Shown: positions 9,821 to 62,300 of the stretch, one piece after another
Position numbering within the stretch: the first letter of the stretch is position 1
How the letters are laid out: each line of letters starts with the position of its first letter
Assembly (NCBI GenBank): GCA_019096065.1
Contig: JAGUCH010000002.1
Coordinates: 16,442,501-16,506,500, forward strand
Direction of reading: 5' to 3'
DNA from: Paracyclopina nana
Lineage: Eukaryota > Arthropoda > Copepoda > Cyclopoida > Cyclopettidae
DNA: 64,000 nt
Made by a program: the position numbers and the translations under genes
Notes under the pieces: generated by a model
Told to the model about the DNA's origin: nothing
The model's database searches: none
Seen by the model: the letters and a program-made list of their open reading frames with translations, nothing else

Positions 9821-11990
9821 ATGAATTCGTCGGCACTTGTTGTGGCAGCGTTAAAACAAAGCCCAAGAGGAAAACTTATTTATGAAAGGCAACCTCTCTC
9901 ATTGTCAATTGCACACAAATCATTGAGAGAGTCGACAAGCTCAGATTCACCCCAAAAGGTCAGCAATGGCAAAGACCAGGAAGTCACAACATTAGCTGGA
10001 TCGTTGGCAGATGTGTCCTCCGTTTTGGAAGATGTCACTACCGAATTGAGTGAGATTCAGCTGAAAAGAGTAGCATCCGTGATAAGCAGGCTGAATAGCA
10101 GTGCAAGGAGTCCAGAGCCTGAAATCTCAATTGACGAAGACTCGGAAAACATCACTAGTCCTGCGAAAGAACCTCATGTGTCAACTCCTCTGATGAAAAA
10201 GCCGGATAGCTTCGACGTTACATCTCCCACAATAGATGAAGTCATGTCAATAGTAGGCCGAGAGCTGTTGAAGCTGGAATCCGAGAGAAAGATGAAGGTT
10301 GAGCTGAAAATCAAGGAGAGAAAAATGCGACTGTCTGCTCGTCATGAAGAGAGGAAACTGCAATCTATCATTGATATGGAGAAGGCGATGCAAACAGTTC
10401 AATCTGACTTGGCTTTCATCGAGGCCAAAGAAAAGGAAGCTGAGGCAAATTTTAGCTCGAAAACCAACAATGATTTCCTGTATCAGCAGGAATTGGCAGC
10501 AAGAAAGGCAAGAGAAGCCCAAATTGAGGCTGAACTTCAAAGGGCCAAGCAACTGGAGCTTGCAAAACAAGAAAAGCAGAGAAAACTCCAAGAAGAGGTC
10601 ATTGCTCAAGCTAATAATCTCAACGAACTGTTGGAGCCCCTAGTGGCCATTGCTGATGCTGAGAGCATCAATGCTTCTCTTCAGCCTTTTGGTTTGAGCC
10701 TCGAAAGTTTGCCAGGCTTCATCCACTCCTCCCCTACTGGAAGCGATCTTCAGGAGGCTCTGGAGATCATCCAGGAGTTGAACACAGTTGTCATCGAATT
10801 GATCGACCAAGCAACGCGACAGCATGAGGAGAAGGAGGCTTTGGAAAGGCATAACCAGGAACAGGCTGAACTAGGCCAACAAAAAAAGCAGCAAGAGCTT
10901 CAGCTAAATCAGCAGCAACTGAATCAACAACAAAAGCCGCAGCAAGATCTCATCACTCCCCAAGCCACGATTGCAGAAACATGCCAATTGAGTGAAATTA
11001 GCCCTGCTAATGCTGAATTATTGAAGAATGTCATAACTTTCAGAGACAATTATGTGCGAGAGCTGAATCAAATGGCTGTGCCCAAAGACTTCAAGTTCAC
11101 GTGCCAAAAAGCTGTGACAACTCCACTCAACGCTATTAGTGATGTCTCGCCTGAGCACCTGAAAGACAAGCTGAACAAACTCACTGCACTCACTAATGGA
11201 GAGCCAGTTCAAGCGACAGAAACCGTGAGATTTCAGGCTAGCTCTTTGCCTGAAATGATCTATGCCAAAAACCATTTGGCCAAAAAGCTTGTCAATCACG
11301 GAGAAGACAATGTTGCCTCCAAGTCAAAAAATGCTTTTGCTCCAGCCATCATCATTGTGTCGATATGGGCCAACCACCAAGATTTTGGCCAAGCGTTCTT
11401 GGCCTACCTCTATGAAACGTGCCCCTTTTTGGTGCCAAAGTACCCACGAAAAACAAAAGATACGACGGACGTGGATTACCTCAGGGCTCTTGGCTACGCC
11501 ATTGGAATGGACGGAATTGCTGAGGACAAGACCAAATTCTTGAAACGTGTCAGTGGGTTAACGAGACTCTACACCGCAATCACAATATCCAGATTACCAG
11601 GTACTTGCAATCTTGACGTCACAATTTCCATATGTTGCAACAAATCTGTTTTCAGGATCCAGAGCTACGACTCAGGATCATCCCCATGGCTTGGGCAACA
11701 TTTGGAGGCTGCTGGCATCAACACTCAACTTGGAGCCCATCAATGACATCACTGCTACAGTTTTATATGACATATTGTCAGTGTCTGGAGCCTTTATGTT
11801 TGAAAAGTATGGGCCAATGTTTGGAAAGATGCTGTCTGTGCTAGCTACCGGATACTTCCAAAAAATCACTGCAGTGACTGAAGAGGGCTGTGGTGGACCT
11901 TTGGCTCGACTTGAGCTCTTCTTGCAAAAAGCTATTTCTTCGCAATCAATTGAACGGCCAGATGGCCTTTTGCGAGCTGATTTTCTATAA
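9821..11990 (+). CDS. GLE1: Nucleoporin GLE1-like mRNA export factor
   Basis: GLE1 sits on the cytoplasmic face of the nuclear pore and, with InsP6, activates the DEAD-box helicase DDX19/Dbp5 during mRNA export. Two exons (9821-11600 and 11656-11990) give 704 residues. The N-terminal part is Ser-rich. A long Glu/Lys/Gln-rich coiled coil follows (roughly residues 145-290), then a Gln-rich linker. The C-terminal GLE1 domain is clear: AIIIVSIWANHQDFGQAFLAYLYETCPFLVPKYP, DYLRALGYAIGMDG, FLKRVSGLTRLY, then HPHGLGNIWRLLASTLN and DITATVLYDILSVSG in exon 2. The ATG at 9821 begins MNSSALVVAALKQSPRGKL; the frame is open further upstream without an ATG. The splice is phase 1. Confidence 0.93.
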
Positions 11991-19128: not shown

Positions 19129-19258
19129 CTCGGCTTTGTGCCAATGATTTCACATTAACCTTTTGGAGGCAAGTGAAGACAAAATCCCAGCAAAGTAAGA
19201 ACATATAATATTAATCTATAAACCTAATAAAGGCTGTTTTTCTTTAGTCTCTTGCAAG

Positions 19259-19531
19259 ATGCACCGATCTACAATTTTGGCCTTTTGCTGCCTCATGGCC
19301 TTGGCCTTGACTGTCGCTCTCCCCGCTCCAGAGCCTGAGCCTCAGCCCATTTTTGGCCTCTTCGGAGGCTATGGAGGTCATAACCACTATGGTGGTTACG
19401 GAGGCCACGGAGGTTACGGAGGTTACGGCCATCACCACCATCATCATGGTCATCACCACCATGGCCATCATCATCATCATCACCATGGACACTACCATGG
19501 TCATCACCATCATGGACATTACCATCATTGA
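19259..19531 (+). CDS. Secreted GY/His-rich peptide, PIFGL group
   Basis: This gene encodes 90 residues. The signal peptide MHRSTILAFCCLMALALTVA is followed by LPAPEPEPQPIFGLFGGYGG. Gly-Gly-Tyr repeats and then a His tail of alternating H-runs and Gly come next. The PIFGL motif recurs after the signal peptide in the genes at 19,914, 34,157 (PILGL), 36,542 and 43,977 (PTFGL). Gly/His-rich secreted peptides in arthropods are often antimicrobial or metal-binding, as in acanthoscurrin, ctenidin and armadillidin, but that role is inferred here. The exon starts at 19,248, and an AATAAA polyadenylation signal lies at 19,575-19,580. Confidence 0.85.
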   Translation: MHRSTILAFCCLMALALTVALPAPEPEPQPIFGLFGGYGGHNHYGGYGGHGGYGGYGHHHHHHGHHHHGHHHHHHHGHYHGHHHHGHYHH

Positions 19532-25598: not shown

Positions 25599-28500
25599 AA
25601 TCTACGAGGCCAAGCCCAAGGAAGAACCCGAATCCGAGGCCTCGGATGATGCGGCACCGGGAAACGACTCGACCCGGTTGTAGAGAGCTCCAGCCGGGTC
25701 CCCTCACCTTCCTTCATATTAGCAGCTCTCGACCACATCGCCAGTCATCAACGATTCATGGCCCAAGTCCCGATCCGCATCGGCAAGATCAAAGCCAGGG
25801 CCCTGGTCGACAGCGGCAACAGCTGGCGCACGTGCATCTCCGAGAATTTCGCTCGCCGACTTGGAGTTCTTCCACACGGTCTCCGGCCCATGCTCGACAT
25901 GCCCGCGGTGGGCACCGCCCACGCGCAGCAACGCCTCCAGGTCCTGGGGGAGTTACGGCAACCACTGCGAGTGCAGCTGGGTAATCACCCTCACTCCTTC
26001 TCTATCCGACCCGCAGTGGTACGAAACCTCTCCATGGATTTCAACTTGTCAGGGCCATTCCTGAGCCACCACCGCATCGACCAGCTCCACTCCCAAGGGA
26101 CCCTGCGCGTGCACGGGAAGCAGATCCCGCTGGTGGGCGCCCTCCAACCCGCTGAGGATCAGGAAGAGTACGAAATCCGGATTCTGCAGCCCGTCAATAT
26201 TCCAGCCCGCACTGTCACCCTGGTGGCCGCCGTAGCCCCTCACTGGCCCCACGGGTCCACGCGGGCCGCCGCCCTCGAAGCAGGGCCCCAGTTTGCCGCG
26301 CAGACGCAGCTGGCGCCCTGGAACGTTGCACTGGTCCAGCCGCGGGCCGGCGGCAGCCTGGCAGTTGGGGTGCTGAACCCCCTGGATCACCCGCTCCGCC
26401 TTAAGAGGCGGAGTGATCTACGGCACCCTCCGCCTCACGAAGAAGACGAGGGCCCCAGCGGAACCGAGGCTACTCCCTCGGTGCGCGCGGTGAGCACGCC
26501 GGCCACCACCCGCAGTACCAGCCGGAAGCAGTCGGAGTCCGATGCCAAGCGCCGCTACGAGCAAGCTGACCGTATCATCGACACCTTCAAGCTGAACGAG
26601 AACGACATGCTCAAAGATAATCCCAAGCGGTTGGCTCAAGCCGCCACCCTGCTCGCGGCCCACGCCGGAGCCTTTTCATTTGACGGCCGCACGGGGCAGA
26701 CCACACTGGTCGAGCATGCCATAGATCTCAAGCCTGGGACGAAGCCCATCAACATCCGTCGGCGACCCATCAATCCGAACCTCGAGGCGTCCCTGAAGGA
26801 ACAGATCCAGAAGTGGTTGGATGAAGAAGTCATCACGCCCATCACTTCGCCGTGGTCCGCTCCTCTTGTTCCCGTCCGCAAGAAGGATGGCACGCTGCGC
26901 TGGTGCGTCGCTTATCGGGCACTCACCAAGGCCGCTGTAGTCGACTCCACACCCCATCGGAGACGTCAGGGACAACCTCAGCCGACTGGCCCGCTCCACG
27001 GTGTTTTCGACGTTGGACGCGGTGGGTGCCTTTAACGTGGTTCCCATTCGGGCAGAGGACGTGGAGAAGACCACCTTTTCCACAGGGGACGGCTCATACG
27101 CCTTCCTCAAGATGCCCTTCGGCCTCACCAATGCGCCCAAGACATACAGCCGCCTCAATAGGATGGTTCTGGAGGGCATATCATGGGACGTTGCCCTGCC
27201 ATACCTCGATGACTGCTTAGTCCATTCAACCGACTTCGAGTCCCACCTCCGCAACTTGCGCCTGGTGCTGCAGGCCCACGAGAAAGCAGGACTTCTGCTG
27301 AAGCCGTCCAAATGTCACCTGTTCCAATCCAGAGTGACATACTTGGGGCATGTTGTCACTCCTCAGGGCCTCGAGGTCATGCCAGCCTACATTGACCTCA
27401 TCCGTGAATGGCCCTTGCCTAACACCAGGAAGCAGTTGCGTATCTTCCTTGGCAAGGCCAATTATTACCGATCCTTCATCGAAAAGTACCAACATGTCGC
27501 GGCGCCCCTGTCGGACAAGCTCTCCAAGGACGACGGCACCAGCGACAACCATGTTTTCCAACCCAGCCCGGAGTTCCGGGCCGCTTTCGACGAGCTCAAG
27601 AAAAGGCTGACCTCCGCGCCTGTACTGGCCTATCCGGACTTCGCCTCGCCTAACCCCTTCATCCTGGATAACGGATTTCTCACAAGAAAACAGGGCTGTT
27701 GGAGGGTCCTCTCCCAAGTCCAAGATCGCAAGGAAAGAGTCATCTTATACGGCGCCAAGAAGCTGAACGCCGCTCAAAGCAATTATTCCGCTTAATCAGG
27801 GCGAGCTGGTGGCCGTAATAATTTTCATCAAACAATTCAAGTATTACCTGCAACACCGCCGTTTCATCCTGCGCACCGACCATCGGGCCCTCCTCTGGAT
27901 CCGCTCCATGGAAGCGCCCACGGAATGCTGGGCCGATGGCTCGACACCATCTCCAACTACGACTTCGAAGTGGTACACCGGGCAGGAGTGAAGCACGGCA
28001 ACGCCCGATTCCCTCAGCCGAGCGCCCCCACCTGGCACAGCGGGGTGACCATATCAGCTCAGACGTCTCTGATGATGACTTTTTCCGGGTGGCTAATCTC
28101 AAGCTGATTCCCACGAAGCCGGAAGCGTGGGCTGCGGCCCAGGAGGAGGACGACGACCTGGTCCTTCTGAGACAGCTAGTCCGACTGAAACAATCGCCTT
28201 CGCAGGAGAACCTCAACGCTGCATCACCTCGAGGTCGCGTGCTACTGGAACAACTAAGTTCCATGACCATGGATCGGCAAGGTGCTCTTCGCTTGCTGGA
28301 TCGGAAGAGGCAAACCTCGCGACTGGTGGTGCCCGCCAGTGGCAGGAAGCCAGCCTCCGCCACGCACACGACACCATGGGACACCAAGGGCGCGACTCCG
28401 TGGTCCACAGGGCAGCTCAGCACTTCTACTTCCCAGGCATGACGCGCCTGGCCGATGAAGTCGTCAAGTCCTGCCTCCTTTGCCAGCGGTCCAAGCCGGG

Positions 28501-30078
28501 CCAGAAGAGCCAGCTGCACACCCTCAAATCGCACTACGCGGGCTACCCGTTCCAGATCTTGAGCCTCGACTCACGTAGGGCCGTTCCAGCCTTCGTCGAA
28601 CCGTCACCGCTACTTGTTCACTGCTAAGTGCGCCTTCACCAAATGGATCGAAGCTTTTCCGTGCGGTTCCAATGATGCTGAAACAGCCGTGCGGTTTTTG
28701 ACGACCGAAATCATCCCTAGATTTGGCCTTCCAGAGAGACTACACACCGATCAAGGGACTCATTTCACGGCCCATCTCATGGAGGTATGCGCGGCCCTTG
28801 GGATACAAGCCACCACTACTCCTTCATACAACCCGCGCAGCAACCCGGTCGAACGGGCGCATCGGGATCTCAACGAGCTCATCAGGAAGATGGTCAAGGG
28901 TCGATACGCGGACTGGGCCGAGGTCGCTCCTTCGCCCTCTTCGTCCTCCGTACTCACCAAAAACCGCTCCACGGGCATGGCACCATATGAAATGGTTTTC
29001 GGTCGCCAACCGTCGACCAACCTGGACTTGATCTTTGGGGACCCGCAGCCGGCTGTAGCAAAGGCCACGCAAGCAGGCCGATTCGCCAAGCAACTGAAGG
29101 AGCGAATACAACTGGCGCATGAATGGGCGAGGAAGAACATCTCCAACTCGATCGAGCGACAACGACGGGCTTATCACATGGACAAGCGTGCGTTCGTAGT
29201 GGGACAGAAAGTGTGGCTGTTCACCCCGAAGGTTATTCCACGCATCTCCAAGAAGCTACAAACCTTCTGGACGGGACCGTGGACAATTGAGAAACGAGTG
29301 AACGAGCTCACTTACGAAATAGCACCAGACCCGTCTTGGGCTCGAGCGCGGAACCAAGTTGTCTCGGTAGACCGCCTTAAGTTGTACATCCCACCTGACC
29401 AAGATCAAGGCAACGTGTCTACTGCACCACCGGCCGAGGATTTGGATCTGTCCATGTTAGGTGACGAATCCGCCGAATTCCTCGCGTACCCACCACATGA
29501 AATCGCGGCGGAGCCCGCTAATGACCTCGCTGTACCTTATGAATATGCGGTGGCCCCGACGGACAGAGAATATGGGTTCCCAGAAGCCCGAGATGACCCC
29601 ATCCCGGCCTTCAACGACGACCCCACGATACCTGAGTACGACTGCATCCACACCGGATAATGAGTCTCCGCAGAATACTCAGCAACTGCCAAGCCCTCCT
29701 ACAGACGATGATGAGCCCAGGCGCACTAGCACAGTGGTGAAAAGGAAACGACGATCAAATGCAGAAATGTTGCAGGCTGACACCGAGAGATTCTTAGGTG
29801 GACCAGAGGCGGTCACCAAACGGTCTAGATCCAAAACACGCAGCGGTGACAGGAGAAGCACGATCGACGAAGATACGTTGCCACTGCAGCATTTGCAAGA
29901 CAATCCGCCAACCGTGCATCAAACTACTAGATATCTGCTCCCGCCGCTAGAACCGCGGCCACTACCTCTTCGACCGTCCATTCCGTCACCGATCAAAGAG
30001 GCCTCTCACTCAACATCATCATCGGCACCGTCAGCAGCTACCGCAGAAACGTGCGACGACGTGTTCCAGGACTAATAC
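25599..30078 (+). pseudogene. pol: pol of the LTR element (PR-RT-RH-IN), several frame breaks
   Basis: The polyprotein carries out proteolysis, reverse transcription and integration. An aspartic protease motif (ALVDSGNS) lies near 25,800. Reverse transcriptase runs about 26,750-27,400, with a frame change near 26,940-27,000, and carries the catalytic YLDD motif. RNase H (about 27,650-28,000) is the most damaged part, with frame changes and a stop at 27,795. Integrase has its HHCC zinc finger near 28,350-28,500, another frame change near 28,590, and a DQGTHF motif plus the region of the catalytic Glu afterwards. An extended acidic C-terminal region changes frame again near 29,650 and ends near 30,075. 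The order PR-RT-RH-IN identifies Ty3/gypsy. As written, this copy cannot make an intact Pol. Confidence 0.85.
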
Positions 30079-34156: not shown

Positions 34157-34453
34157 CTAGTAATGGTGTCCATGCCCATGTCCATGTCCATGACCGTGAC
34201 CATGACCATGACCACCATGATGTCCATGACCATGTCCGTGACCATGCCCGTGACCGCCTCCAAATCCGTTATTGAAGCCTCCTCCGAATCCGTTATTGAA
34301 GCCTCCTCCAAATCCGTTATTGAATCCTCCTCCAAATCCGTTATTGAATCCTCCTCCAAATCCTCCTCCGAGGCCTCCAAGGAGTCCCAAAATGGGAGAG
34401 GCTGTGGCAATGGCCGCCATCATCAGGCAAATGAGAGCAACAATCTTGTACAT
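34157..34453 (-). CDS. Secreted Gly/Phe/Asn and Gly-His repeat peptide, PILGL group
   Basis: This gene encodes 98 residues. The signal peptide MYKIVALICLMMAAIATA is followed by SPILGLLGGLGGGF. Four near-perfect GGGFNNGF repeats follow, and then a Gly-His dipeptide tail (GHGHGHGH...HHY). Promoter and non-coding exon are visible on the minus strand: TATAAAAAG at 34,711-34,703, exon 1 ending at 34,638 (GTAAGA donor), and exon 2 starting at 34,460 after TTCGCAG. The 177-bp intron is longer than in sister genes because it carries a small palindromic insertion. GGGF repeats recall armadillidin-like antimicrobial peptides; function is inferred. Confidence 0.82.
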   Translation of the reverse strand: MYKIVALICLMMAAIATASPILGLLGGLGGGFGGGFNNGFGGGFNNGFGGGFNNGFGGGFNNGFGGGHGHGHGHGHGHHGGHGHGHGHGHGHGHGHHY

Positions 34454-34489
34454 TTTGATGCTGCGAAAAAAACGAAAAATAAATATATG

Positions 34490-34626
34490 CGAAATTCAAT
34501 TGAGTATTTTTATCGTTAACTAGGTAACGGAACTTCAATACTCCCATGTAGCTTGGCTTATCACTACATAGGTGTATTTAAATACCGTTACGGGGTAACA
34601 ATCAAAAGGCGGAGTAGGGAACAAGC
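34490..34626. mobile_element. Small palindromic element related to the 6.2-kb foldback ends
   Basis: GTTAACTAGGTAACGG near 34,510 and CCGTTACGGGGTAAC near 34,590 form an inverted pair. The right end (minus strand: GCTTGTTCC... CCTTTTGATTGTTACC) matches both ends of the element at 50,012-56,226. It lies inside the 5'UTR intron of the minus-strand peptide gene. Left boundary is approximate. Confidence 0.55.
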
Positions 34627-36424: not shown

Positions 36425-36541
36425 GACACGCAATTTTCCACCAGCCATCAGTAGCAAATCCCCATTTGAAAAAGTAAGACTTACCACTGAATTTCAAATA
36501 AGGAAATATTTAATTCAATATTTTTAATTTATCTTTTAGAA

Positions 36542-36769
36542 ATGTATCGACTTTTGGCCTTTGTCTGCCTTCTGCTCGTGGCCGTGGCCACTGCCAATCC
36601 TGCTCCCATTTTCGGCCTTCTGAGCGGCCTCGGTGGCTACGGTGGTTACGGCGGTTACGGTGGTTACGGTGGCTACGGAGGCTACGGTGGCTACGGTGGA
36701 CACCATCATCATCATCATGGCCATCACCATCACCACGGTCATGGACATGGATACGGCTATTACGGTTAA
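36542..36769 (+). CDS. Secreted GGY/His peptide, PIFGL group
   Basis: This gene encodes 75 residues. The signal peptide MYRLLAFVCLLLVAVATA is followed by NPAPIFGLLSGLGG, seven or more GGY repeats, and a His-rich segment ending GHGYGYYG. It is a clean short version of the decayed GGY locus at 21-33 kb and shares the motif after the signal with the genes at 19,259 and 19,914. AATAAA lies at 36,822-36,827. C. elegans nlp/cnc peptides and several arthropod antimicrobials are similarly YGGYG-rich, so an antimicrobial or cuticular role is plausible. The signal and promoter are the firm evidence. Confidence 0.87.
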   Translation: MYRLLAFVCLLLVAVATANPAPIFGLLSGLGGYGGYGGYGGYGGYGGYGGYGGHHHHHHGHHHHHGHGHGYGYYG

Positions 36770-41818: not shown

Positions 41819-42100
41819 TCAAGCACTGGCGTCATTGCTGCTGCGAAATCCAAATCCGTTTCCAAAGTAGTTTCCTGGGTAGTAATTGTTGTAGCCACCA
41901 AAGTTGTTATACCCTCCATAAGGCCTATAAGGTCTGTAAGGCCTGTAAGGCCTGTAAGGCCTATTGTAACCTCCGTAGAAGCCGCCAAAATGGTGCCTTG
42001 CTTCAACTTCATCCGTTTCCTCTTGTGGAGAAGGAGCAGCTTGCGAAATGGCTGCAATTGCGAGGCAGAAAATGGCCACAATTTGCAAATAGCGGGTCAT
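41819..42100 (-). CDS. Secreted RPY/GGYNN-repeat peptide, acidic-propeptide group
   Basis: This gene encodes 93 residues. The signal peptide MTRYLQIVAIFCLAIAAISQ is followed by AAPSPQEETDEVEAR and then HHFGGFYGGYN. Four RPY repeats (PYRPYRPYRPYRPYGG) lead into GGYNNFGGYNN, ending FRSSNDASA. The propiece is acidic and ends in Arg just before HHFGG, the same junction as in the gene at 45,331. Exon 2 starts at 42,110 after CCCCCAG. Exon 1 ends at 42,182 (GTAAGT donor), giving a 71-bp 5'UTR intron, and a TTATAAG box lies at about 42,233-42,240 on the minus strand. Confidence 0.85.
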   Translation of the reverse strand: MTRYLQIVAIFCLAIAAISQAAPSPQEETDEVEARHHFGGFYGGYNRPYRPYRPYRPYRPYGGYNNFGGYNNYYPGNYFGNGFGFRSSNDASA

Positions 42101-42383
42101 GGTTGATTTTCTGGGGGAGAATGAACGAAAAAATATTAGGGCTAATTTTGGGCCCAGAAAATGGAGTGTTCACAGACTTACCTTAGGGAGCTTGACAGTT
42201 CAAGTGATGATTGTGCAGCACAGGTAGGCCCGCTTATAAAGCACTCACAAAGGAAATTCCACAATTCGTGGCTGAAATCAACCACCAGAACAAGGGAATA
42301 TCCCATCTTCGCGGAAAGCACCCAGAGCAATCATTATCATCATTGCAAGTGTGAATTTCGAAAATCAGGGCATTTTCCTTACT

Positions 42384-45330: not shown

Positions 45331-45786
45331 TTAAGCGTCTCCAGCTGAACCAGCCGCAACATCATTATTATTATTGTTGGTATCTCCAGCCAAATCTGAG
45401 TTCCTGAATCCATATCCGTAGTAGCCAGGCCTGTTATTGTATCCGTTATAGCCGTTATTGTATCCATTATTGTATCCGTATCCGTTGTTGTATCCTCCAC
45501 CGTATCCGTTGTTATATCCTCCACCAAAGCCGTTGTTGTATCCGTTGTATCCGTTGTTGTATCCGTTGTTGTATCCGTTATTGTATCCACCGTAAGGCCT
45601 GTTATTGTAGCCTCCGTAAGGCCGATTGTTGCCATAGGCTCCACCAAAGTGATGCCTGGCCACAGCATCTTCATCTTCAGCCTCATTTCCAGACGATGAT
45701 GGAATGTCAACCTCTTGAGGCCACGGGGCAGCGTGGGACAAGGCCACGACCAAAAGGCAAAAAAAGGCCAAAGTGAGTTGTGTCAT
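45331..45786 (-). CDS. Secreted Asn/Gly/Tyr-repeat peptide, acidic-propeptide group
   Basis: This gene encodes 151 residues, among the longest of the set. The signal peptide MTQLTLAFFCLLVVALSHA is followed by an acidic propiece (APWPQEVDIPSSSGNEAEDE, then DAVAR) and HHFGGAYGNNRPYGGYNN. About ten copies of YNNG or YNNR units follow, ending in a Asn/Ala/Gly tail. The HHFGG junction after Arg matches the gene at 41,819. The C-terminal part repeats FRNSDLAG, comparable to FRSSNDASA in that gene, so the two are paralogues. A TTATATAG box lies at 45,926-45,933 on the minus strand; an AAATAG acceptor lies about 12 bases upstream of the ATG. Confidence 0.85.
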   Translation of the reverse strand: MTQLTLAFFCLLVVALSHAAPWPQEVDIPSSSGNEAEDEDAVARHHFGGAYGNNRPYGGYNNRPYGGYNNGYNNGYNNGYNGYNNGFGGGYNNGYGGGYNNGYGYNNGYNNGYNGYNNRPGYYGYGFRNSDLAGDTNNNNNDVAAGSAGDA

Positions 45787-46276
45787 TTTTCGTTTTTCCT
45801 ATTTGAAAAATAATTGTTATAACGATGGAAAGTTCAACGAACGTAATACGAACTTTTACTTTTGGTTCTGTTGTTGCTAAGGGGGCTCGAAATGCTCAAG
45901 TGAAGATTTTCATTGCAGGTATGATCTATATAAGGGCTGGCTAGCGGGAAAAACCAGAGTTCGGCTTCAGCCCAAACAATAAAGGTTTGCCTAGCTTTGT
46001 TACTGTAGTAGCCAGCTTTGGCCAGCTCCAAACTCTGAGAAAAATGCAATGCCAAGAGCCATCATGGCATTCTAGTGCGTATATACATTTTCAAAGCGGA
46101 AAAATCTGGAATTTTCACCTTGCCATGTTTTTTATGTCGGCCATGATGGAATATGGACTTTGTGCTGGTATGTAGGCCTATTCTGCTCCATTAGAAAATG
46201 GCCGGTATGGAAAAAAGTTCATCCAAGGACTTGAAAAGTTGTTCGTCAATAATTGATTGATTGCACCGCAGCACAG

Positions 46277-47573: not shown

Positions 47574-47642
47574 GTAAGTGAGTAACTCATATAACATAAA
47601 ATTAATTAAAATAATTCTTTGTTAGTACTTTTGCAGGGGAAA

Positions 47643-47948
47643 ATGTATCGATACTCAATTGCCGTATTTTGCCTGATTGGCTTGGCACTTGTAAATGCAG
47701 CTCCAGCTCCAGAGGCTGAGGCCGATTCTGGAGAGGTTCAATCAAGACACCATGGAGGCTACGGTGGCGGATACGGAGGATACGGAGGTTACGGTGGCTA
47801 CGGAGGCAACGGAGGTTACGGTGGCTACGGAGGTTATTATGGAGGTTACGGTGGTGGATACGGAGGATACGGAGGTTACGGTGGTGGATACGGAGGATAC
47901 GGAGGACACGGACATCACCATCATCACCATGGCCATAGCTATTATTAA
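47643..47948 (+). CDS. Secreted GGY-repeat peptide, acidic-propeptide group
   Basis: This gene encodes 101 residues from the ATG six bases after a TTTTGCAG acceptor. The signal peptide MYRYSIAVFCLIGLALVNA is followed by APAPEAEADSGEVQSR and then HHGGYGGGYGG. Dense GGY repeats follow, then a short His tail (GHGHHHHHHGHSYY). It combines the acidic propiece with the GGY/His body typical of the PIFGL group, linking the two groups. AATAAA is at 47,986-47,991. Confidence 0.87.
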   Translation: MYRYSIAVFCLIGLALVNAAPAPEAEADSGEVQSRHHGGYGGGYGGYGGYGGYGGNGGYGGYGGYYGGYGGGYGGYGGYGGGYGGYGGHGHHHHHHGHSYY

Positions 47949-49900: not shown

Positions 49901-50659
49901 ATGAAGCCTTCTTTAAAGCCAAATTCAATTACAATTTGAAAGCAGTTGAAGCAACAACATCCAACTAAATAACGTAAGTTATATTTACGATGAGGATATA
50001 AAAATACTTTGGCTGGTTCTTTAGGTAACTTTTTGATCGTTACCACGTAACGGTTTTTTTAATACACCACACCTATGAAGTGATCAGCCAGGTATTCATA
50101 TACCTTTCCATTACATAGGCTTAGTCTTTCGCACAATTTACATAGTAACGTTATTTAAATCGCTCCTACTAAAAGGCACACAATGCCCACAATTGGCACA
50201 CAATGCCCACACCACCCACAAGGCACACAATCGGCACACAATTACTAAAAGGCGCACATCAAAAAAAAAAAAAAAATTTGATTCCTAAATGTAAGCTAGA
50301 CAGTGTTTGCGAAAATTTTTGGAATTAGGAGCCATGATTTTTAGCTTAGCTGTGTGCCAAAAAAAGTAGCTTTTAAAATTATAAAAAAATAGAATTTGGC
50401 TTTTACTATTTAACAAAAAATAATAAACTAATTTTCTCTGACTTTGCATTGCTTAGATAATGCCAAAATTTAGGCAATTACTGTTGAGACCTTTATGTGC
50501 TTTTGTGCCTCTAGTCAGAAAACGTGTAAAATATAAAGAGTTAAAGTTAATGCAAACCAAATAATTTTCTAACAATTGGTCCCAATGCTGAGATAATGCC
50601 AAAATTTGGGGATATTAGTGCGAAATTCCTTATTAGTAATGGAGCACAAAGCCCAAGAA

Positions 50660-50880
50660 CATAATAGCCCACTATGGCACACAATTGCACACAATTGCAC
50701 TCAATGATGGCACACAATTGTACACAATGGCACACAATGGCACACAATGACACACAATGGCACACAATGGCACACAATGGCACACAATGGCACACAACGG
50801 CCTGCAACAGTACACAACGGCACACAACTGCCCGCATTGGCACACAATGGCACACAACAGCCCATGAAGACATATAATGG
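50660..50880 (+). repeat. GGCACACAAT 10-bp repeats, outer left arm
   Basis: Degenerate tandem copies; a second short block lies at about 50,930-51,090. Confidence 0.8.
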
Positions 50881-51269
50881 CTAACAATAGAAAAAAAGGC
50901 AGACACTGACACATAATGATGGTGCACAATGGCACACAATGGCTAACAATTGCACATGATGGCACAAAAGGCAGACAATGACACACTATGATTGTGCACA
51001 ATGGCACTCAATGATGCCCACAAAATGGCACACAACGGCCCGCAATGGTACACTATGGCACACAATTACACACAATGGCACACAACTGCCTTAGTGGAAC
51101 TTAGTTGCGGTATTTTAGCACTGAGTGGCGCTTCAGTCGCTCATCGGGGCAGTCCGAAAAAAATAAATAAAAATAACTTACTGCAGTTTCCAAAAATGTA
51201 ATTAAATTAATTTTCTTAATTTGTTTTGCTGAGATCATGACAAAATTCGGTCAATTACCGCAGAGAATT

Positions 51270-52375
51270 AAGTATGCGTGTTGTGTGCCAACATGTAAGT
51301 TGCTTTTAAAAATATAAGCAATTAAAATTTGGGTTTCACTATTAAACATAAAATAATGATAATTTGATGCAGTTTCCAAAAATGTAAACAAATTATTTTT
51401 CTGACTTTGCTTTGCTGAGATAATGTAAAAATTCGGGCAATTACTGCTACGACCTTTGTGTGCTTGTTGTATGCCAAGATGAAAGTTACTTTTAAAAATA
51501 TAAGGAATTAAAATTTGGGTTTCACTATGTAACAAAAAATAAAGATAATTTGATGCAGTTTCCGAAAATGTAAACAAATTATTTTTCTGACTTTGCTTTG
51601 CTGAGATAATGTAAAAATTCGGGCAATTACTGCTACGACCTTTGTGTGCTTGTTGTATGCCAAGATGAAAGTTACTTTTAAATATATAAGGAATTAAAAT
51701 TTGGGTTTCACTATGTAACAAAAAATATAGATAATTTGATGCAGTTTCCGAAAATGTAAACAAATTAATTTTCTGACTTTGCTTTGCTGAGATAATGCAA
51801 AAATTCGGGCAATTACTGCTACGACCTTTGTGTGCTTGTTGTGTGCCAACATGAAAGTTACTTTTAAAAATATAAGGAATTAAAATTTGGGTTTCACTAT
51901 GTAACAAAAAATAAAGATAATTTGATGCAGTTTCCGAAAATGTAAACAAATTATTTTTCTGACTTTGCTTTGCTGAGATAATGCAAAAATTCGGGCAATT
52001 ACTGCTACGACCTTTGTGTGCTTGTTGTGTGCCAACATGAAAGTTGCTTTTAAAAATATGAAGAATTAAAATTTGGGTTTCACTATGTAACAAAAAATAA
52101 AGATAATTTGATGCAGTTTCCGAAAATGTAAACAAATTAATTTTCTGACTTTGCTTTACTGAGATAATACAAAAATTCGGGCAATTACTGCTACGACCTT
52201 TGTGTGCTTGTTGTGTGCCAACATGAAAGTTACTTTTAAAAATATAAGGAATTAATATTTGGGTTTCACTATTTAACATAAAATAATGATAATTTGATTC
52301 AGTTTCAAAAAATGTAAACAAATTAATTTTCTGACTTTGCTTTGCTGAGATAATGCAAAAATTCGGGCAATTATG
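51270..52375 (+). repeat. Six tandem 186-bp units in the left arm
   Basis: GATGCAGTTTCC (GATTCAG in the last copy) recurs near 51,366, 51,552, 51,738, 51,924, 52,110 and 52,296, an exact 186-bp spacing. Inverted copies lie in the right arm at about 53,950-54,480. Confidence 0.9.
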
Positions 52376-52402
52376 GTTAACTTCATTGTTGTTAACAACA
52401 AA

Positions 52403-52590
52403 CGCACACAATGGCACACAATGGCACACAATGGCACACAATGGCACACAATGGCACACAATGGCACACAATGGCACACAATGGCACACAATGGCACACA
52501 ATGGCACACAATGACACACAATGGCACACAATGGCACACAATGGCACACAATGGCACACAATGGCACACAATGGCACACAATGGCTCACA
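52403..52590 (+). repeat. GGCACACAAT satellite-like tract
   Basis: About 19 nearly perfect 10-bp copies, mirrored by ATTGTGTGCC copies at about 55,525-55,655. Confidence 0.95.
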
Positions 52591-52620
52591 ATGATGGCAC
52601 ACAATTATGGCAAACCAATA

Positions 52621-52810
52621 GCACACTTTTGTGACCTATTTTGTGACCACTTTTGTGACCACTTTTGTGACCACTTTTGTAACCACTTTTGTGACTACTT
52701 TTGTGACCACTTTTGTGACCACTTTTGTGACCACTTTTGTGACCACTTTTGTGACCACTTCTGTGACCACTTTTGTGACCACTGTTGTGACCACTTTGTG
52801 ACCACTTTGC
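52621..52810 (+). repeat. 12-bp TTTTGTGACCAC repeats
   Basis: About 15 copies with few changes; I see no mirrored copy in the right arm. Confidence 0.9.
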
Positions 52811-53129
52811 TGAGATAATTCCAAAATTTGGGCAATTATTGCAAAGACATTTTTGTGTGAATGGTGTGTACTCAGCATGAAAATTGCTTTCAAATGTAAA
52901 CAGAATAATTTACTGACTCTGCATTGCTGAGGTAATGCAAAAATTTGGGCAATTAATCCAATGTAGCTAAAGTAGCACACAAACCAAAGAATGGCCCACA
53001 ATGGCACATTATGACAAACAATGATGGCACACAATGATGGCACAAAAATGATGGCCCACAATGGGTCACAATGGCACATTATGGCACACAATGATGGCAC
53101 ACAATGGCCCACAATGGCGCACAATGATG

Positions 53130-53600
53130 GTACACAATGGCCCGTTTAAACGACAGCCTTTTTTACAACGCACTTCATAAGGCATGCTGCTGAGATTTAC
53201 TGAGTCAAAATGCAGAGATGCTGAGTTTTCTCACTGATAAAAAATGTAGAGTATGCTCTCTGGTTTCCAAAACTGTAAACAGATCAAAAATCGGACCATT
53301 TTTTGATTTTTGGCATTGATTAAATGGTTAAAACGGCAGCCTTAAGTACTGCATTACATTAGGCCTGCTGCTGAGATTTACGGAGTCAAAATGCAGAAAT
53401 GCTGAGTTTTCTCACTGATAAAAAATGTAGTATATGCTCTATGGTTTCCAAAACTGTAAGCAAATAAAAAAATGGACCATTTTTCGAATTTTGGTACTGA
53501 TTAAACGATTGAAACGGCAGCCTTGTGTAGAACGCACTACATAGGGCCTGCTGCTGAGATTGAGTATGCTAGGTTTACTCACTAATCATCATTACATGGA
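53130..53600. repeat. Central spacer with three ~181-bp repeats
   Basis: GCTGCTGAGATT recurs near 53,186, 53,367 and 53,549. This is the non-inverted middle of the foldback element. Confidence 0.7.
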
Positions 53601-54439
53601 TTGATGACAGCAATGGATTTTGCAGTAATTGCCCGAATTTTGCGATTATCTCAGCAAAGCAATGTCAGACAATTATTTCGTTTACATTTTTGGAGGATCC
53701 CCCAAATTATCTTTATTTTCTGTTCAATAAGATTAGCCGAATTATAATTCTTTGTAATTTTAAAAGCTTATTTCATTTTTGTGGCACAGCTAAGCTAAAA
53801 ACAAGCAACCCCTTTCCGTTGTGTGCCTTTGTGTGCCTTTGTGTGCCATTGTGTGCCATTGTGTGCCATCATTGTGTGCCATTGTGGGCCATTGTGTGCC
53901 ATCATTGTGTGCCATCATTGTGTGCCATTGTGTGCCATTGTGAGCCATTGCCCGAATTTTTGCAATATCTCAGCAAAGCAAAGTCAGAAAAATATTTTTT
54001 TACATTTTCTGAAACTGCATCAAATTATCTTCATTTTATGTTAAATAGTGAAAGCGGAATTTTAATTCCTTATATTTTTAAAAGCAACTTTCATGTTGGC
54101 ACACAACAAGCACACTACGGTCTCAGCGGTAATTGCCCGAATTTTGGCATTATCTCAGGAAAGCAAAATCAGAAAATTATTCAGTTATCATTTTCGGAAA
54201 CTGCAACAAATTATCTTTATTTTATGTTAAATAGTGGAAGCCGAATATTAATTCTTTGTATTTTTAAAAGCAACTTTCATGTTGGCACACAACAAGCACA
54301 CTAAGGTCTCAGCGGTAATTGCCCGAATTTTGGCATTATCTCAGCAAAGCAAAGTCAGAAAATTATTTTTTTTACATTTTCGGAAACTGCATCAAATTAT
54401 CTTTATTTTTTGTAAAATAAGATTACACAAAATTATTAT

Positions 54440-55740
54440 TCTTTATAATTTTAAAAGCTAATTTCATATTTGGCTTACAGCTAAGCTAAAAACAAAAGTG
54501 TGCTATTAGTTTTCCATCATTGTGTGCCGTTGTGCAATTGTGTGCCATTATGTGCCATTGTGTGCCGATGTGTGCCATCATTGTGTGCCAATATGTGCTT
54601 TTGTGTGCTTTTGTTGTTAACAACAATTGAAACAATTGATTTAGTTGTAATTGCCGAAATTGTGGCATTATCTCAGCAAAGCAATGCCAGAAAATGTAAA
54701 TGCAATAATTTTCTGACTTTGATTTGCAGCAAGCCTTATGTAGTGTGTTGTACAAAAGGCTGCCGTTTCAACCGGCCATTGTGTACCATCATTGTGAGCC
54801 ATTGTGTGCCATTGTGTGCCTTTGTGTGCCATTGTGTGCCATTGTGTGCCTTTGTGTGCCATTGTGTGCCATGATGGCACACAATTACTAAAAGGCACAC
54901 AAAGAGTAAAAAAGCAAACTAATTGGATCATGTGCTTGGGTTGTTAATAACAATGGATTTAGCGGTAATTATCTCATTATCTCAGCTAAGCAAAGTCAGA
55001 AAATTATTCTGTTTACATTTTTGGAAGCTCTCCCAAAGTATCTTTTTTTTCAATTAAATAATAAAAGCCAAATTATTATTCTTTATAATTTTAAAAGCTA
55101 ATTTCATATTTGGCACACAGCTAAGCTAAAAACAAAAGTGTGCTATTAGTTTTCCATCATTGTGTGCCGTTGTGTGCCATTGTGTGCCTTTATGTGCCAT
55201 TGTGTGCCGATGTGTGCCATCATTGTGTGCCAATATGTGCTTTTGTGTGCTTTTGTTGTTAACAACAATTGAAACAATTGATTTAGTTGTAATTGCCGAA
55301 ATTGTGGCATTATCTCAGCAAAGCAATGCCAGAAAATGTAAATGCAATAATTTTCTGACTTTGATTTGTAGCAAGCCTTATGTAGTGTGTTGTACAAAAG
55401 GCTGCCGTTTCAACCGGCCATTGTGTACCATCATTGTGAGCCATTGTGGGCCATTGTGTGCCATCATTGTGTGCCATTATGTGCAACTGTGAGCCATTGT
55501 GGGCCATTGTGGGCCATTGTGGCCCATTGTGTGCCATTGTGTGCCATTGTGTGCCATTGTGTGCCATTGTGTGCCATTGTGTGCCATTGTGTGCCATTGT
55601 GTGCCATTGTGTGCCATTGTGTGCCATTGTGTGCCATTGTGTGCCATTGTGTGCCATGATGGCACACAATTACTAAAAGGCACACATGGAGTAAAAAAGC
55701 AAACTAATTGGATCATGTGCTTGGGTTGTTAATTTTGTGT
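54440..55740 (+). repeat. 640-bp direct tandem repeat in the right arm
   Basis: GCTATTAGTTTTCCATCATT occurs at 54,502 and 55,142, and long flanking sequence matches, including GTTGTTAACAACAATTGAAA. Confidence 0.85.
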
Positions 55741-56267
55741 GCCATTGTGCGCCAATGTGTGCCATCATTGTGTGCAAAGGAAAGTCGGAAATTTTTTTTT
55801 TACATTTTTGGAAGCTGCATCAAATTATCTTATGTTTAATAATATTAGCTAAATTGTGATTCCTTGTATTTTTAAAATGGTACTTTTATATTTGGCACAT
55901 TTCTAAGCTAAAAACATGCAACCACTTTCCAACTTACTTTTACGAATCAATTACTTTTTTTTTAAATTTGATGTGTGCCTTTTAGTAATTGTGTGCCGGT
56001 TGTGTGCCTTGTGGGTATTGTGGGCATTGTGTGCCAATTGTGGGCATTGTGTGCCTTTTAGTAGGACCCATTTAAATAGCTCATAACATGAAATGTATTT
56101 CAGATGCCTAAATACATTCATAGGCTATTTTTAAAAATAGCGAGACTATACAAAACTTGCGAAAGACTAATGCATTATTAAGCACCGTTACAAAGTAACT
56201 ATCAAAAGGTTGGGTAAAGAGTCAGCCTTTGTGATCAATGTATGCATTCTTTGCGCTTTACAGGAAG

Positions 56268-56753
56268 ATGAATCCACGACTAATGACCTTTGTTTGTCTC
56301 ATCATGGCTCCCTTGTCCCAATGCCAAGATGAAGTGAGCGAAGTGGATACAAGGCATTTTTCCGGAAATGGCGGATTCAGCACTAACGGACTGAGCGTAG
56401 ACTACGGAAACAGGCCGAGTTACGGCAGTAACCTACCCACCTACCGACCTACTTACGGAGATAACGGAGGATACGGAAATAACGGTTACGGAGGAAACCG
56501 ACCTAGCTACGGAAATAACGGTTACGGAGGAAACCGACCTAGTTACGGAAATAACGGTTACGGAGGAAACCGACCTAGCTACGGAAATAACGGTTACGGA
56601 GGAAACAGACCAAGCTACGGAAATAACGGTTACGGAGGAAACCGACCTAGTTACGGAAATAACGGATATCATGGCAGTCTCGGAGGATACAATAAGCCTA
56701 GCTATGGAAATCATGGTCATCATCATCATCATCATCATGGAGTTTATTATTAG
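56268..56753 (+). CDS. Secreted YGNNGYGGNRPS-repeat peptide, acidic-propeptide group
   Basis: This gene encodes 161 residues. The ATG lies four bases after a CTTTACAG acceptor (56,263). The signal peptide MNPRLMTFVCLIMAPLSQC is followed by QDEVSEVDTR and then HFSGNGGFSTNG. Five 12-residue repeats YGGNRPSYGNNG follow, then a His run (HHHHHHHGVYY). The junction DTR-HFSG matches the Arg-aromatic/His junction of its group. Its promoter and non-coding exon appear to lie at 49,894-49,973, on the far side of the foldback element. Without that element the intron would be 70 bp, the usual size here. An AATAAA lies at about 57,054. Confidence 0.85.
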   Translation: MNPRLMTFVCLIMAPLSQCQDEVSEVDTRHFSGNGGFSTNGLSVDYGNRPSYGSNLPTYRPTYGDNGGYGNNGYGGNRPSYGNNGYGGNRPSYGNNGYGGNRPSYGNNGYGGNRPSYGNNGYGGNRPSYGNNGYHGSLGGYNKPSYGNHGHHHHHHHGVYY

Positions 56754-57205: not shown

Positions 57206-57212
57206 TATATAA
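57206..57212 (+). promoter_or_regulatory. TATA box of the WDxRIRLA prepropeptide gene
   Basis: TATATAA lies 66 bases before the ATG. Confidence 0.65.
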
Positions 57213-57277: not shown

Positions 57278-58745
57278 ATGAAGCGTCAATGCCTTTTTGC
57301 AATTTTGGGCCTCGTAGTTGCGATTCTCGCCATCAGTGGCGCCAATGCTCATGACGACAATGCAGACACCGAAGGTGAGCTCTTTTCACTTGATGTGTTC
57401 ACCTGCTCTTCATGGTCGATATTTCGACAAAATATTGCTGTGAAGAATTGTTGAAATCTGCTCGAAAGTACGACACGATTTTCTTGTTATACGCCTTTAA
57501 GCCATTTTCGTCTAATGAATTGGAAAAAATCAGTAGAAAATGGCCTGCGTTGGCTGATAATGCTTTATGTTCGAAAAAAAACATAATATTTTAGACCAGG
57601 TGAACAGGGCCTATTAGTGTAATTTCGCTGAACAAAAGAATCGTATTTTGACTTGTCATCCATTTCCTTTTGAGCTGCATCTGTGCAAAAACCGCATCAG
57701 TCCGGTTTGAAATCTTTTCTTTTTTTTTTGCAGTCAAAGGGGCCTTTTTGTTCATTGGGAAATACAAACTGCAAAGAAACTACCGTTCATTTTGTAGTGC
57801 CATGCACGGTGGATTATTTTGCAGTTTGAACGCGCATACTGCACACATGTTTTTGGACCATTAAATCAACCCCATTGAAAAGCATGTAAAATCCATTTAA
57901 ATTGTTTCTCTTTTTGGATTGAAAAGCTAGAAATATGTGAATATTGATAAACAATGAATTTGTTCATTTTCTAATGTAAACTGAATGACTTTCTGGGAAT
58001 TCCCAAATTCCACCAAGCCACACACAAAAAATACACTTTTCCACGGTGTTCAACCATTATTTGCAAATTAGTCACAGAAGAAATTGCACACATTTTACAA
58101 CAGTGTCCATTTTAGCCAAACCAGTTTTTTCCAACGATTTGAAAAGGCCAATTTTACACTGTCATCATGATGATGATTATATTCTTTAAAAGTCAATTGT
58201 GCGAGCTGATGATATGGCCCTTAAGAGATCTTGTTGCAAATCTCTATTGTTGCAGATTTCTTCAGCTCAATTTTGACTTGAGTCATCAGTTTTCTTAAAG
58301 AGAGAATGCGAAAAAATGGAAGGTTCAAGTTTTATGCTTTTTTTCCTCAGATGATTTAGTGGAGGACATGGGCCATGAAATGTTGCCCAAAAGGTGGGAC
58401 AACCGTATCAGGTTAGCTCGTAAAAGGTGGGACAATCGCATACGTTTAGCCAAAAAATGGGACAGTCGAATCCGATTGGCCAAAAAGTCAACTGAGGAAG
58501 ATTCCAAATGGGACAAACGCATCAGGCTCGCCAAAAAATGGGACAACAGAATCCGACTGGCGAAAAAGGAGGCCATTTTCATTCCAGGTAAAATTGCCTA
58601 AAGAGGTTGCGTGATTTAACCATTCCGGAAAGTTCCGACATGACTTGATTTGTTTACAGTTGATTACGAGTCAGAGGATGATGACAGCACAGTGGACCCG
58701 TCGAATGTTCTGGAAAAACGTGGTGGTTATATTCGACTGTTGTGA
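57278..58745 (+). CDS. Prepropeptide with five WDxRIRLA repeats (candidate neuropeptide precursor)
   Basis: Three exons (57,278-57,374, 58,351-58,587, 58,660-58,745), all joined in phase 1, give 139 residues. The signal peptide MKRQCLFAILGLVVAILAIS ends at GANA. After an acidic spacer, exon 2 carries five copies of an eight-residue unit: WDNRIRLA three times, WDSRIRLA and WDKRIRLA once each. Four are followed by KK and one by RKR; they are preceded by KR, KK, RKR or a single K. Exon 3 is acidic and ends EKR, then GGYIRLL and stop, a possible sixth, related peptide. Repeats between basic sites behind a signal peptide are the hallmark of neuropeptide precursors. There is no Gly before the cleavage sites, so the peptides would not be amidated. 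I match it to no known family. Confidence 0.85.
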
Positions 58746-58885
58746 ATTTAATTAATCGTGGGCCTTTTCATCTTTATTCTGTCTCGCGCCAATCATTGAA
58801 AATATAGTTGTACACCAAATATCAACCACAATTTGTCAATAAAATTTCAACTATGGGACTCTTTAATTGTTGTTGCTGATGCGTT

Positions 58886-58980
58886 TCAGTTTTGATACTC
58901 CAGATCAAATTGGAACTTGCGAATGCGTTTCTTCAGGTCTTTGGTCTCCCAATAAAGAGGACCACACCACATGCCAAAGC
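58886..58980 (-). CDS. Duplicate last exon of the minus-strand gene, copy 1, open
   Basis: After a CATTTTTCAG acceptor it reads FGMWCGPLYWETKDLKKRIRK and more, in the phase needed for splicing from the donor at 60,460, and then stops. It could serve as an alternative terminal exon. It lies inside the 3' flank of the prepropeptide gene. Confidence 0.5.
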
Positions 58981-59075
58981 CTGAAAAATGAAGGGAATAA
59001 AACTGCAGCAAGCTCTAACTATAATGCGTTTCAGGTTTTGACCCTCAGGATCAAATTGGAACTTGCAAATGCGTT

Positions 59076-59125
59076 TCAAGTCTTTGGTCTCCCAATATAA
59101 GGAGGACCACACCACATGCAAAAGC
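59076..59125 (-). pseudogene. Duplicate last exon of the minus-strand gene, copy 2, frameshifted
   Basis: The acceptor is kept, but two extra bases after CGPPY shift the frame and give an early stop (RPKT, stop). Confidence 0.55.
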
Positions 59126-59167
59126 CTGAAAAATGAATCGAATACAATCCATGTATTTTGCTTGCAG

Positions 59168-59260
59168 CTGAATAAGAGACTTGAGACTGCGGATGATGAC
59201 AACACAGTGGAAGTGTCGAATGTTGTGGAAAAACGCGATGGTTACATCAGACTGTTGTGA
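59168..59260 (+). pseudogene. Duplicate of the last exon of the prepropeptide gene
   Basis: It reads ADDDNTVEVSNVVEKR, then DGYIRLL and stop, closely matching exon 3 of the upstream gene, after an acceptor-like CTTGCAG. Joined to exon 2 the phase does not fit and gives an early stop, so it is probably not a working alternative end. Confidence 0.6.
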
Positions 59261-59377
59261 ATTTAACTAATTGTGGGCCTTTTCATCTTTATTCTATCTC
59301 GCGCCAATCATTGAAAATATAGTTGTACATCAAGTATCAACCACAATTTGTCGATAAAATTTCAACTATGGGACTCA

Positions 59378-62300
59378 TTAATTGTTGTTGCTGATGCGTT
59401 TCAGGTTTTGATCCTCAGGATCAAATCGGAACTTGCGAATGCGTTTCATCAAGTCTTTGGTCTCCCAATAAGGAGGACCACACCACATGCCAAAGCCTGA
59501 AAAATGAATTGAATAAAAATGCAGCATAGCTACTGTAGTTCTAAGTATTGTGTACACAGAGAAGAGGAGGACGTTGCCCGCCTTCAAATGATAACATATA
59601 ACTAAAGGAGTAGAGAATGGAAGTAGCACAGATGCTGAGTTGTACTGAAAAACAAAAACAAAAAACGCGACTGAACAATTAAGAAGCTAAGCAAAGCAAA
59701 GCTACATCACTTTGGTAGCTCATTTCCCAGCACCGCCTGCATCGATTGGTGCCAAAGTAGGTGGGACTCATGAGAGTTGCCTAATAATTGTTGATGTCAA
59801 ATTTAGTGCAAATCCGAGGTGCTAAGTGGCACCCGAATTTCTTTATAATAGCTCACCTTTTCTTTGCTGAAAACCGATCTGTTGATTGTGGCCTCGGATT
59901 GGGACCAAATTAAATATGAATTATTATTAGACAACTCTGATAAATCCAACCAATTTTGGTTCCTATCAGCTGAGAAGATACTGAGAAACGCGCCATCAAA
60001 CCTTGCTTTTGCTTTAACTTAGCTGTCTTATGTAGTGGAATCTGCCTAATATTGGGAGACTTTCAATAGAAAAGAAAATATCAATCCTTTTTTTTAATTT
60101 GTTCATGTCAGATGAAATAATGTGAAATAAAAATGAATATCGAAAATTAAAATTGAAAGAAATTCCTATCCATAAAAAATACTTCTAGTCTCTCCCAAAT
60201 TGATCAATTTTCTCAGTTTCCGTGCTACTCACTTCTCAACGGCCTTTGAACGTAACATATGTAATAAGGCACAAAAACAAACACACTATTTACCTCTAAT
60301 TATCATTCAAAGTAAACAAAAGTCGTCATCTGCGAATATAAAAAGGGAAAAAGCAGTGCAAGAATAATTAGGAGAAGAGTGCAAAGTAAAAATAAAAAAA
60401 ACATCAAGCCAGTCGTGGTGTCAATTTGATAAAGGCCAAAATGTAAGCAAATAACTTACTGCTTTCACGTGACAGCTGGCCAATTGGCGGAGCTTTTGAT
60501 GAGGAAGTCGTGGAAGATTCACTGGTGCTTCTCTTGAACCCACCACATCTGGCTGGTGGGGAAGGGCAAGGGGTTTTGAAGTTGGTGGCTGTCACATATT
60601 CCAGAAATGCGTCGAGTTGTCGCAAAGACAGAGCGTTATGTAACGTTTCAAGCGGTCTGATGTTGGGCATGCCCACAGATAATGCTGCAGAAAATCACAA
60701 CAAAAAGCAATTAATACACACTGACATTTGGCGAAATGACAGGCACTTATAGATATAGGTGACTCGTGGAAAAATGGCTTTTATCATTGTGGCTCCTATC
60801 ATTATTTGCTTAAGGTTCATTCATCAATATATGATAATTTTTGGGAAATGCGCAGCTACATTTTTTCCCATCAAATTAATTTGGAAAGGGTACACACGAA
60901 TTTTTCGGTGTTTGCTCACATTTGATGGGGTTGACATGTGTTGACTTTAAGCCAGATGTCATTTCATGAAACTCTGAGCATGAAAAATAACGCAACTTTT
61001 ACTTTTGAATTACTTTACTTGCAATTATTACAAGAGTCTGTTCTCATCTAGTTCAACAAGCAAGGCTGCTGTGAAGTTAAGCAAGGCTCTTTGAAGGCTT
61101 ATAACTCTACTACTGAGCTGATCGGATTTTTACATTAGTGCTGAAAACTACCCTGAATGCCAATCCGGATTGCTATAAGCCAGGGGAGGGACAAACTTTT
61201 TCGCTAGATGGCGCTTTTTGAGCAAGTGTTTTTGGAAAAACTACCTTGCGCGAAACTTGTCACGTGACTACGAGCGGCAATTTGATTGGCTGAGCAGCGG
61301 AGCGAGGCTACAAAAATTTGGGTTCAACAACGAAAAGCTTGAAAGTTTGCGAAAGACGCTAAATGTTTTATGGCTTGAAAGGGTGCCATTTTGCCTGTAG
61401 ATTATGCCGCATTAATAAAGTTTTCGACACAAGTGCTCGCAAAGCCAAACAATTGCCAATTGTGTATCATCATAGCAGCGCAGCCATATCAAATGTACTT
61501 GCCCAAGTTAAAAGGATAGATGGCGCTGCGAATCTGGCAACTTTACGCCTTTGCCTTATAACGAAACAGCTTACCAACGTTTTCGCCCTGCCTTGGCATT
61601 TCTTGCAAGTTGGGCACCGAGGTTGATCCGGAAATGACCGCGGTGCTGAATAAGTGGGCCGTGGTTGATCCTTTGGCAGCCAATTCATGGAGAAACTTCA
61701 GGTAGTTGTTCAACCGGTGACCGGGTATGGAATGCCTATGGGCTCTCCGGAATGCATCTGCGGAGGGTGGGGCCACGATTAGGGCGGAGATTGAATTAGC
61801 AGGGGACGTGCCAGCCGAGTTCCCACAAGGGGGCGTGGCCACCAAGTTGGTCGAGGGGAAGAGGGGCGTGGCAGCGCCGGAGTCGGCGCAGTTGGGCGGG
61901 AGCGAGCGGCTCTTTTGCAAAGGGCAAAAGTAATCACAGCTTGAGGAGCAAGGATCCGGACTGGCCAAACCTGTTGAGGAGGAGGAGGAGTGGCCACTGT
62001 GGATTATGACTCGAAAAAGGGCGGTTGAAGGGCTTTCTGACATGGAGACAATCAAGTGCGAAGAAATCAGAAATAGGATAGAAAAAGAAAGAAAAAACAG
62101 CAATTAACCTAATATGCCCATCAATGTGTACGATAACTAATAAAATGAGTTACATTCTCTTCAACACGCTCACGAACACAATTTATACATGTAAAGTGTT
62201 AAATATTGAATGAGTGAGTGAGCAATGAGGGGACAAGCACGTGCATTTCTTAAAATCATTGATTTGACCTCAAAAGCAAAATAAGCAGAGAAGGAGAGTA

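Follow-up and report, generated by a model that had tools for sequence, protein, structure and literature searches.

Read together with its relatives, a gene in the window, i.e., the whole stretch of 64,000 nucleotides analysed here, encodes a secreted precursor that carries several peptide copies between basic cleavage sites and fits no recognisable family motif. It is likely to encode a preprohormone whose family, of multi-copy neuropeptides or peptide hormones, matches none that we found. The family itself is real and conserved, and apparently undescribed within the open-access library searched. Precursors of this kind are well known; for its peptides the resources consulted gave no match, and we infer that they would be neuropeptides in the strict sense, i.e., made in neurons.

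Gene model and repeat units

Splicing of three exons, scripted on the window sequence, gave an open frame for a precursor of 139 amino acids (Table 1). Both introns have GT-AG borders and are in phase 1, in line with the three exons joining in the same phase that the earlier note had described, and the last exon adds KR-GGYIRLL before the stop, as had also been read. For the claimed upstream TATA box there is a candidate, a TATATAA string found in the sequence. A scan for bacterial sigma-70 promoters returned 0 sites, its consensus being bacterial and uninformative for this gene.

Two features of neuropeptide precursors were looked for and found, namely an N-terminal signal peptide, judged by hydropathy, and short peptides in several copies with basic sites for cleavage on either side, the latter with unit 4, preceded by a single K, as the exception. 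The N-terminus of the precursor, MKRQCLFAILGLVVAILAISGANA, is signal-like, with a hydropathy peak of 3.2 (14 residues, residues 6-19) that was reached in 0 of 2000 shuffles of the precursor, which bears out the signal peptide proposed previously; by eye, A-N-A precedes the presumed signal cut.

Table 1. Positions in the window of the precursor gene, its repeat units and nearby elements
Feature	Position	Strand	Remarks
TATATAA, possible TATA box	57206..57212	+	66-72 bases 5' of ATG; from sequence
Exon 1	57278..57374	+	signal sequence 57278-57349, start of acidic spacer, phase-1 donor
Exon 2	58351..58587	+	spacer and five WDxRIRLA units
Unit 1 WDNRIRLA	58395..58418	+	aa 48; KR before, RKR after
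Unit 2 WDNRIRLA	58428..58451	+	aa 59
Unit 3 WDSRIRLA	58458..58481	+	aa 69
Unit 4 WDKRIRLA	58509..58532	+	aa 86; internal KR; single K before
Unit 5 WDNRIRLA	58539..58562	+	aa 96
Exon 3	58660..58745	+	acidic spacer, KR, terminal GGYIRLL (58722-58742), stop
AATAAA polyadenylation signal	58838..58843	+	from sequence
Second copy of exon 3	59175..59260	+	ends KR-DGYIRLL; probably decaying duplicate

The repeats had been described as five WD(N/S/K)RIRLA units between basic cleavage sites. Five units there are, with N, N, S, K and N as their variable residue and RKR, KK, KK-STEEDSK and KK as the pieces between them in order, and units 1, 2, 3 and 5 are indeed bounded by KR, RKR or KK. The description fails for unit 4 (KK-STEEDSK-WDKRIRLA-KK), which has no dibasic site directly before it. 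With a single K in that place the fourth peptide is probably the extended STEEDSKWDKRIRLA, and for the same reason the identity of the fourth product is less clear. The precursor is without a glycine-basic site for amidation, in agreement with the missing amidation glycine reported earlier; arthropod neuropeptides more usually have amidated than free-acid C-termini.

The five units code the same residues by different codons (47 synonymous and 16 non-synonymous differences over 10 pairs), giving a pS of 0.88, a pN of 0.086 and a pN/pS of 0.10, and all amino-acid differences among them fall at position 3. These codon comparisons demonstrate purifying selection on the repeats.

The gene is single-copy, since exon 2 had one good match in its own genome (92 Mb, 10 contigs), namely itself. 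A second genomic match (E 8.25) was rejected as chance, having eight internal stops, and searching this genome with a DNA pattern found two places in the gene and one at C2:12674372, equal to its reversed control (3 vs 3). Exon 3 and its 3' flank are, in turn, duplicated 515 bp downstream (226 nt at 91%), in a duplication of ~515 bp that repeats most of the exon, the 3' flank and part of the opposite-strand region. Exon 3 and its second copy agree at 65 of 86 bases. Entered at its CAG acceptor and joined to a phase-1 donor, the copy reads A-E-stop, therefore its use as an alternative exon is disfavoured and a decaying duplicate is preferred. The YIRLL codons of the two copies differ by synonymous changes only, which speaks for past selection, and over the exon as a whole pS is 0.31 and pN 0.21, indicating little constraint.

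Relatives and anatomy of the family

Three protein searches together recovered 59 distinct relatives (P0001-P0059; weakest P0057, E 0.054). The single-sequence search, which covered ~5.8 billion proteins, contributed 45 proteins at E <=1 (best 7.3e-33), while profiles of 12 sequences (A2) and of seven diverged sequences (A3), scored on the 8000 candidates sharing most words, found 57 proteins at E <=10 and 52 proteins, respectively. The search tables held no names or precomputed Pfam domains for any of the 59. Their sources are labelled 'ena', 'jgi', 'lgn' and 'merc', the last of which we take to be a marine eukaryote metatranscriptome catalogue. Viral contigs were dismissed as a source, with 11 stretches fitting the peptide patterns and none encoding a relative, and no PHROGs family matched. 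By sequence, the PDB returned weak matches only (best E 1.4 for the single sequence and 0.54 for the diverged profile).

The host is an arthropod, its genome having 80 matches to the cuticle domain Chitin_bind_4 and, at E <=10, ten to the CHH neurohormone family, of which six are marked as exceeding the cut-off; this also counts in favour of the prohormone reading. The compact genome and the environmental origin of the relatives make a small-genome crustacean, such as a copepod, the most likely host. COX1 had no match in the assembly, nor had insect odorant receptors and odorant-binding proteins, for which the search controls were equally silent.

In a tree of the window's precursor and 20 of the 59 relatives, P0042, P0043, P0044, P0050, P0053 and P0054 split from the other 15 with a support of 98/96. 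The window falls in the 15-member group, where its place is without resolution, and the split suggests that the family has at least two diverged groups.

Among the 59 relatives, 23 (including P0001, P0002, P0012, P0013 and P0014) have an extension, starting with MG, ahead of the usual signal start, and in some of them these starts vary by a single residue (MGEQS, MGQS). Possible causes are a trans-spliced leader with ATGG at its end and assembly at the protein level.

The relatives also bear on the gene model. Genomic 'ena' relatives enter foreign flanks where transcript-like 'merc' relatives go on. At the left border DELEEIDKRG is preceded by FFSFS in P0005 and by DVTTP in P0012, and the same kind of border separates P0019 from P0024 and P0020 from P0013; at the right border KKDSL-GIFIPSQ or KKDSL-GKFIPSQ (P0003, P0005) stands against KKDSL-DYNEPLL (P0012). 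Comparison of P0059 with P0050 places a border ahead of the last part of the diverged group. These relatives were compared as proteins, in which intron phase is not directly visible, and their borders fall where the window has its introns, ahead of DDLVED and of VDYES, thus supporting the three-exon model. P0020 seems to have one further intron within the repeats.

Units were counted as matches to xDxR(I/L)R(L/V)x, a pattern in which D and both R are set from the outset, and amounted to 273 in 60 sequences (the window and its 59 relatives). W occupies position 1 in 208, position 3 is N in 110, S in 101, K in 43, T in 12, R in 5, and G and Y in 1 each, and position 8 is A in 228, V in 21, M in 10, T in 9, G in 3 and S in 2. 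An alignment of 16 sequences, made independently of this pattern, shows no variation in its D, R, I, R, L and K columns. The two residues after the unit are KK in 213, KR in 52, RK in 4, KS in 3 and HK in 1, such that KK, KR or RK follows directly in 269 of the 273, and a glycine-basic site follows in 0 of the 273. The three units with G at position 8, then KS, belong to P0020, P0040 and P0041, which are genomic and seem to enter an intron there.

A KR-x-IRL(L/I/V) terminus is found in 13 of the 60 sequences (the window and 12 relatives) and in both groups, the diverged group including a KR-GGYIRLV terminus; in P0058 KR-GGYIRLV is internal, not terminal. The terminal IRL peptide is absent from P0001, P0002, P0004, P0010, P0013, P0018, P0021 and P0024, so it is not universal, and some further relatives are fragments or run into introns. 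P0046 could end in KR-xxx-IRL(L/I/V/M)-stop in another frame, which is weak, as 20 of 300 shuffled tails did likewise.

Four or more units are present in 46 sequences, and in 40 of these one unit, and only one, has K or R at position 3, which creates a dibasic KR or RR directly before IRL. This odd unit is the penultimate one in 31 of the 40, the last one in 3 and another one in 6; the window has it as unit 4, its penultimate. P0016, P0033, P0042, P0043 and P0044 have no odd unit and P0023 has two. A cut at this internal dibasic site may release a third product, IRLA. Cleavage before aliphatic residues is disfavoured.

Neighbourhood of the gene

An apparent last exon of a convergent gene lies on the minus strand at 58878-59526, where a stretch of 650 bases contains it in three forms (near 58.9, 59.1 and 59.4 kb, one being 59378-59496) of which one has a broken frame. 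Four pieces of that gene searched against Pfam gave nothing at E 0.1, and three joined pieces gave nothing in the PDB at E 1. After its repeats, P0046 (on a 1093-bp contig) has a stretch resembling the reverse side of the convergent exon (18/44 residues, E 4e-8 in a single comparison), hence the convergent pair may be conserved.

Small Gly/Tyr-rich frames (GGYGG or GNNGYGG) with signal-like starts were noticed by eye at 19199-19528 (+), 34160-34495 (-), 36491-36766 (+), 41822-42169 (-), 45334-45798 (-), 47610-47945 (+) and 56235-56753 (+); they are perhaps a cluster of secreted glycine-rich proteins, and the last of them had no Pfam match. Also by eye, retroelement-like frames occupy ~25650-29657 (+), with a reverse-transcriptase-like stretch (FLKMPFGLTNAP) and an integrase-like one. 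Long tandem repeats, reading CAIVCHCVPL on the minus strand and with some frames of >400 codons, fill 50550-55670, and the window further holds a GLE1-like gene at 9734-11743 (+) and a Rab-GAP TBC domain at 4846-5175 (+).

Known families, alternative readings and proposed processing

The earlier note had placed the core outside the known arthropod neuropeptide families. This view is upheld by the absence of any match to the motifs tested or, above the cut-off, to Pfam, and of any neuropeptide paper among the literature matches listed for the peptide strings in open-access texts. Neither the 17 motifs of known families nor a general pattern for amidation matched the precursor. Absent from it are the C-terminal or core motifs of kinin, allatostatin A/B/C, pyrokinin, tachykinin, RYamide, SIFamide, proctolin, CCAP, PDH, EFLamide, sulfakinin and FMRFamide-like peptides. 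No Pfam family exceeded its cut-off, the sole match being DUF3849 (8.2 bits vs a cut-off of 25), and a TpcC match in 1 of 7 diverged relatives (E 0.0086) was taken as chance. Searching open-access full texts for the unit and terminal strings gave no neuropeptide paper by title among the matches listed, and a term search for IRL had 0 occurrences in the main text of the barnacle neuropeptide paper PMC3462748.

Three known types of precursor are similar in general plan. Those of the orcokinin/pedal-peptide type carry many near-identical non-amidated peptides, and differ in that the orcokinin core NF(D/E)EIDR is not found here. Neuropeptide-like precursor 1 (NPLP1) is likewise a non-amidated multi-peptide arthropod precursor, and differs in its core LGSLA(R/K), also lacking here. 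The arthropod short neuropeptide F (sNPF), whose core comes nearest, is an RLRF-amide, and its precursor shares with ours the multi-copy/multi-peptide layout, the basic cleavage sites and an R-(L/I)-R-(F/L) near the C-terminus. In contrast, the units of the window gene start with W-D and lack the aromatic residue of that core and an amidation glycine, and RLR(F/W)G is absent from the precursor.

The neuropeptide or peptide-hormone reading has points against it, namely the terminal IRL peptide missing from several relatives, the less usual free-acid C-termini and the lack of a dibasic site before unit 4. The alternative that fares best, although improbable, is a secreted multi-copy peptide that is not neural, i.e., one with an antimicrobial, epithelial or cuticular role that is released from a repetitive precursor. 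The window's list of open reading frames contains several small genes that by eye look secreted and rich in repeats, which fits with this, as does the mildly basic nature of the peptides; however, the peptides are short (7-8 aa), carry little net charge and lack cysteines, and a single core kept across copies by purifying selection would suit a receptor ligand better than a membrane-active peptide.

We regard as very unlikely that a known family, most plausibly sNPF/FMRFamide-like, has been strongly derived here by a change from R-L-R-F-G to R-I-R-L-A with loss of amidation. By eye the cores are alike, both being R-(I/L)-R-(L/F), and R-L-R is read in 3 of the 273 units, yet neither RLR(F/W)G nor another tested motif was found in the precursor, the units are never followed by a glycine-basic site, and Pfam was silent above its cut-off. 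Least credible of all is a chance open frame or decaying repeat with no functional gene: the neighbourhood is repeat-rich and the exon 3 duplicate is seemingly decaying, but splice sites are intact, relatives share the architecture, and chance is excluded because those relatives exist and because pS so exceeds pN among the units.

For the prohormone reading, which we prefer, processing could run as follows. The precursor would enter the secretory pathway, prohormone convertases would cut after KR, KK and RKR, and a carboxypeptidase would trim the basic residues. The predicted products, each with a free-acid C-terminus, are WDNRIRLA in three copies, WDSRIRLA, STEEDSKWDKRIRLA (or IRLA, should its internal KR be cleaved) and GGYIRLL, and a G-protein-coupled receptor would probably read their shared C-terminal IRL-aliphatic core. 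We give roughly even chances to a more specific proposal, in which an undescribed family of free-acid peptides built on this core would have its own receptor, would be widespread in planktonic crustaceans (probably copepods), and would yield a third product by regulated cleavage at D(K/R)RIRL of one, usually penultimate, unit.

Motif-based surveys would miss such a system, because the known cores and the amidation signal are both absent. The analysis offers concrete peptides to synthesise and a reason to seek their receptor, and alternative prohormone processing becomes testable through the conserved unit that has a dibasic site inside it. If the host and the relatives are copepods, the signalling system would belong to animals that rank among the most abundant in the sea.
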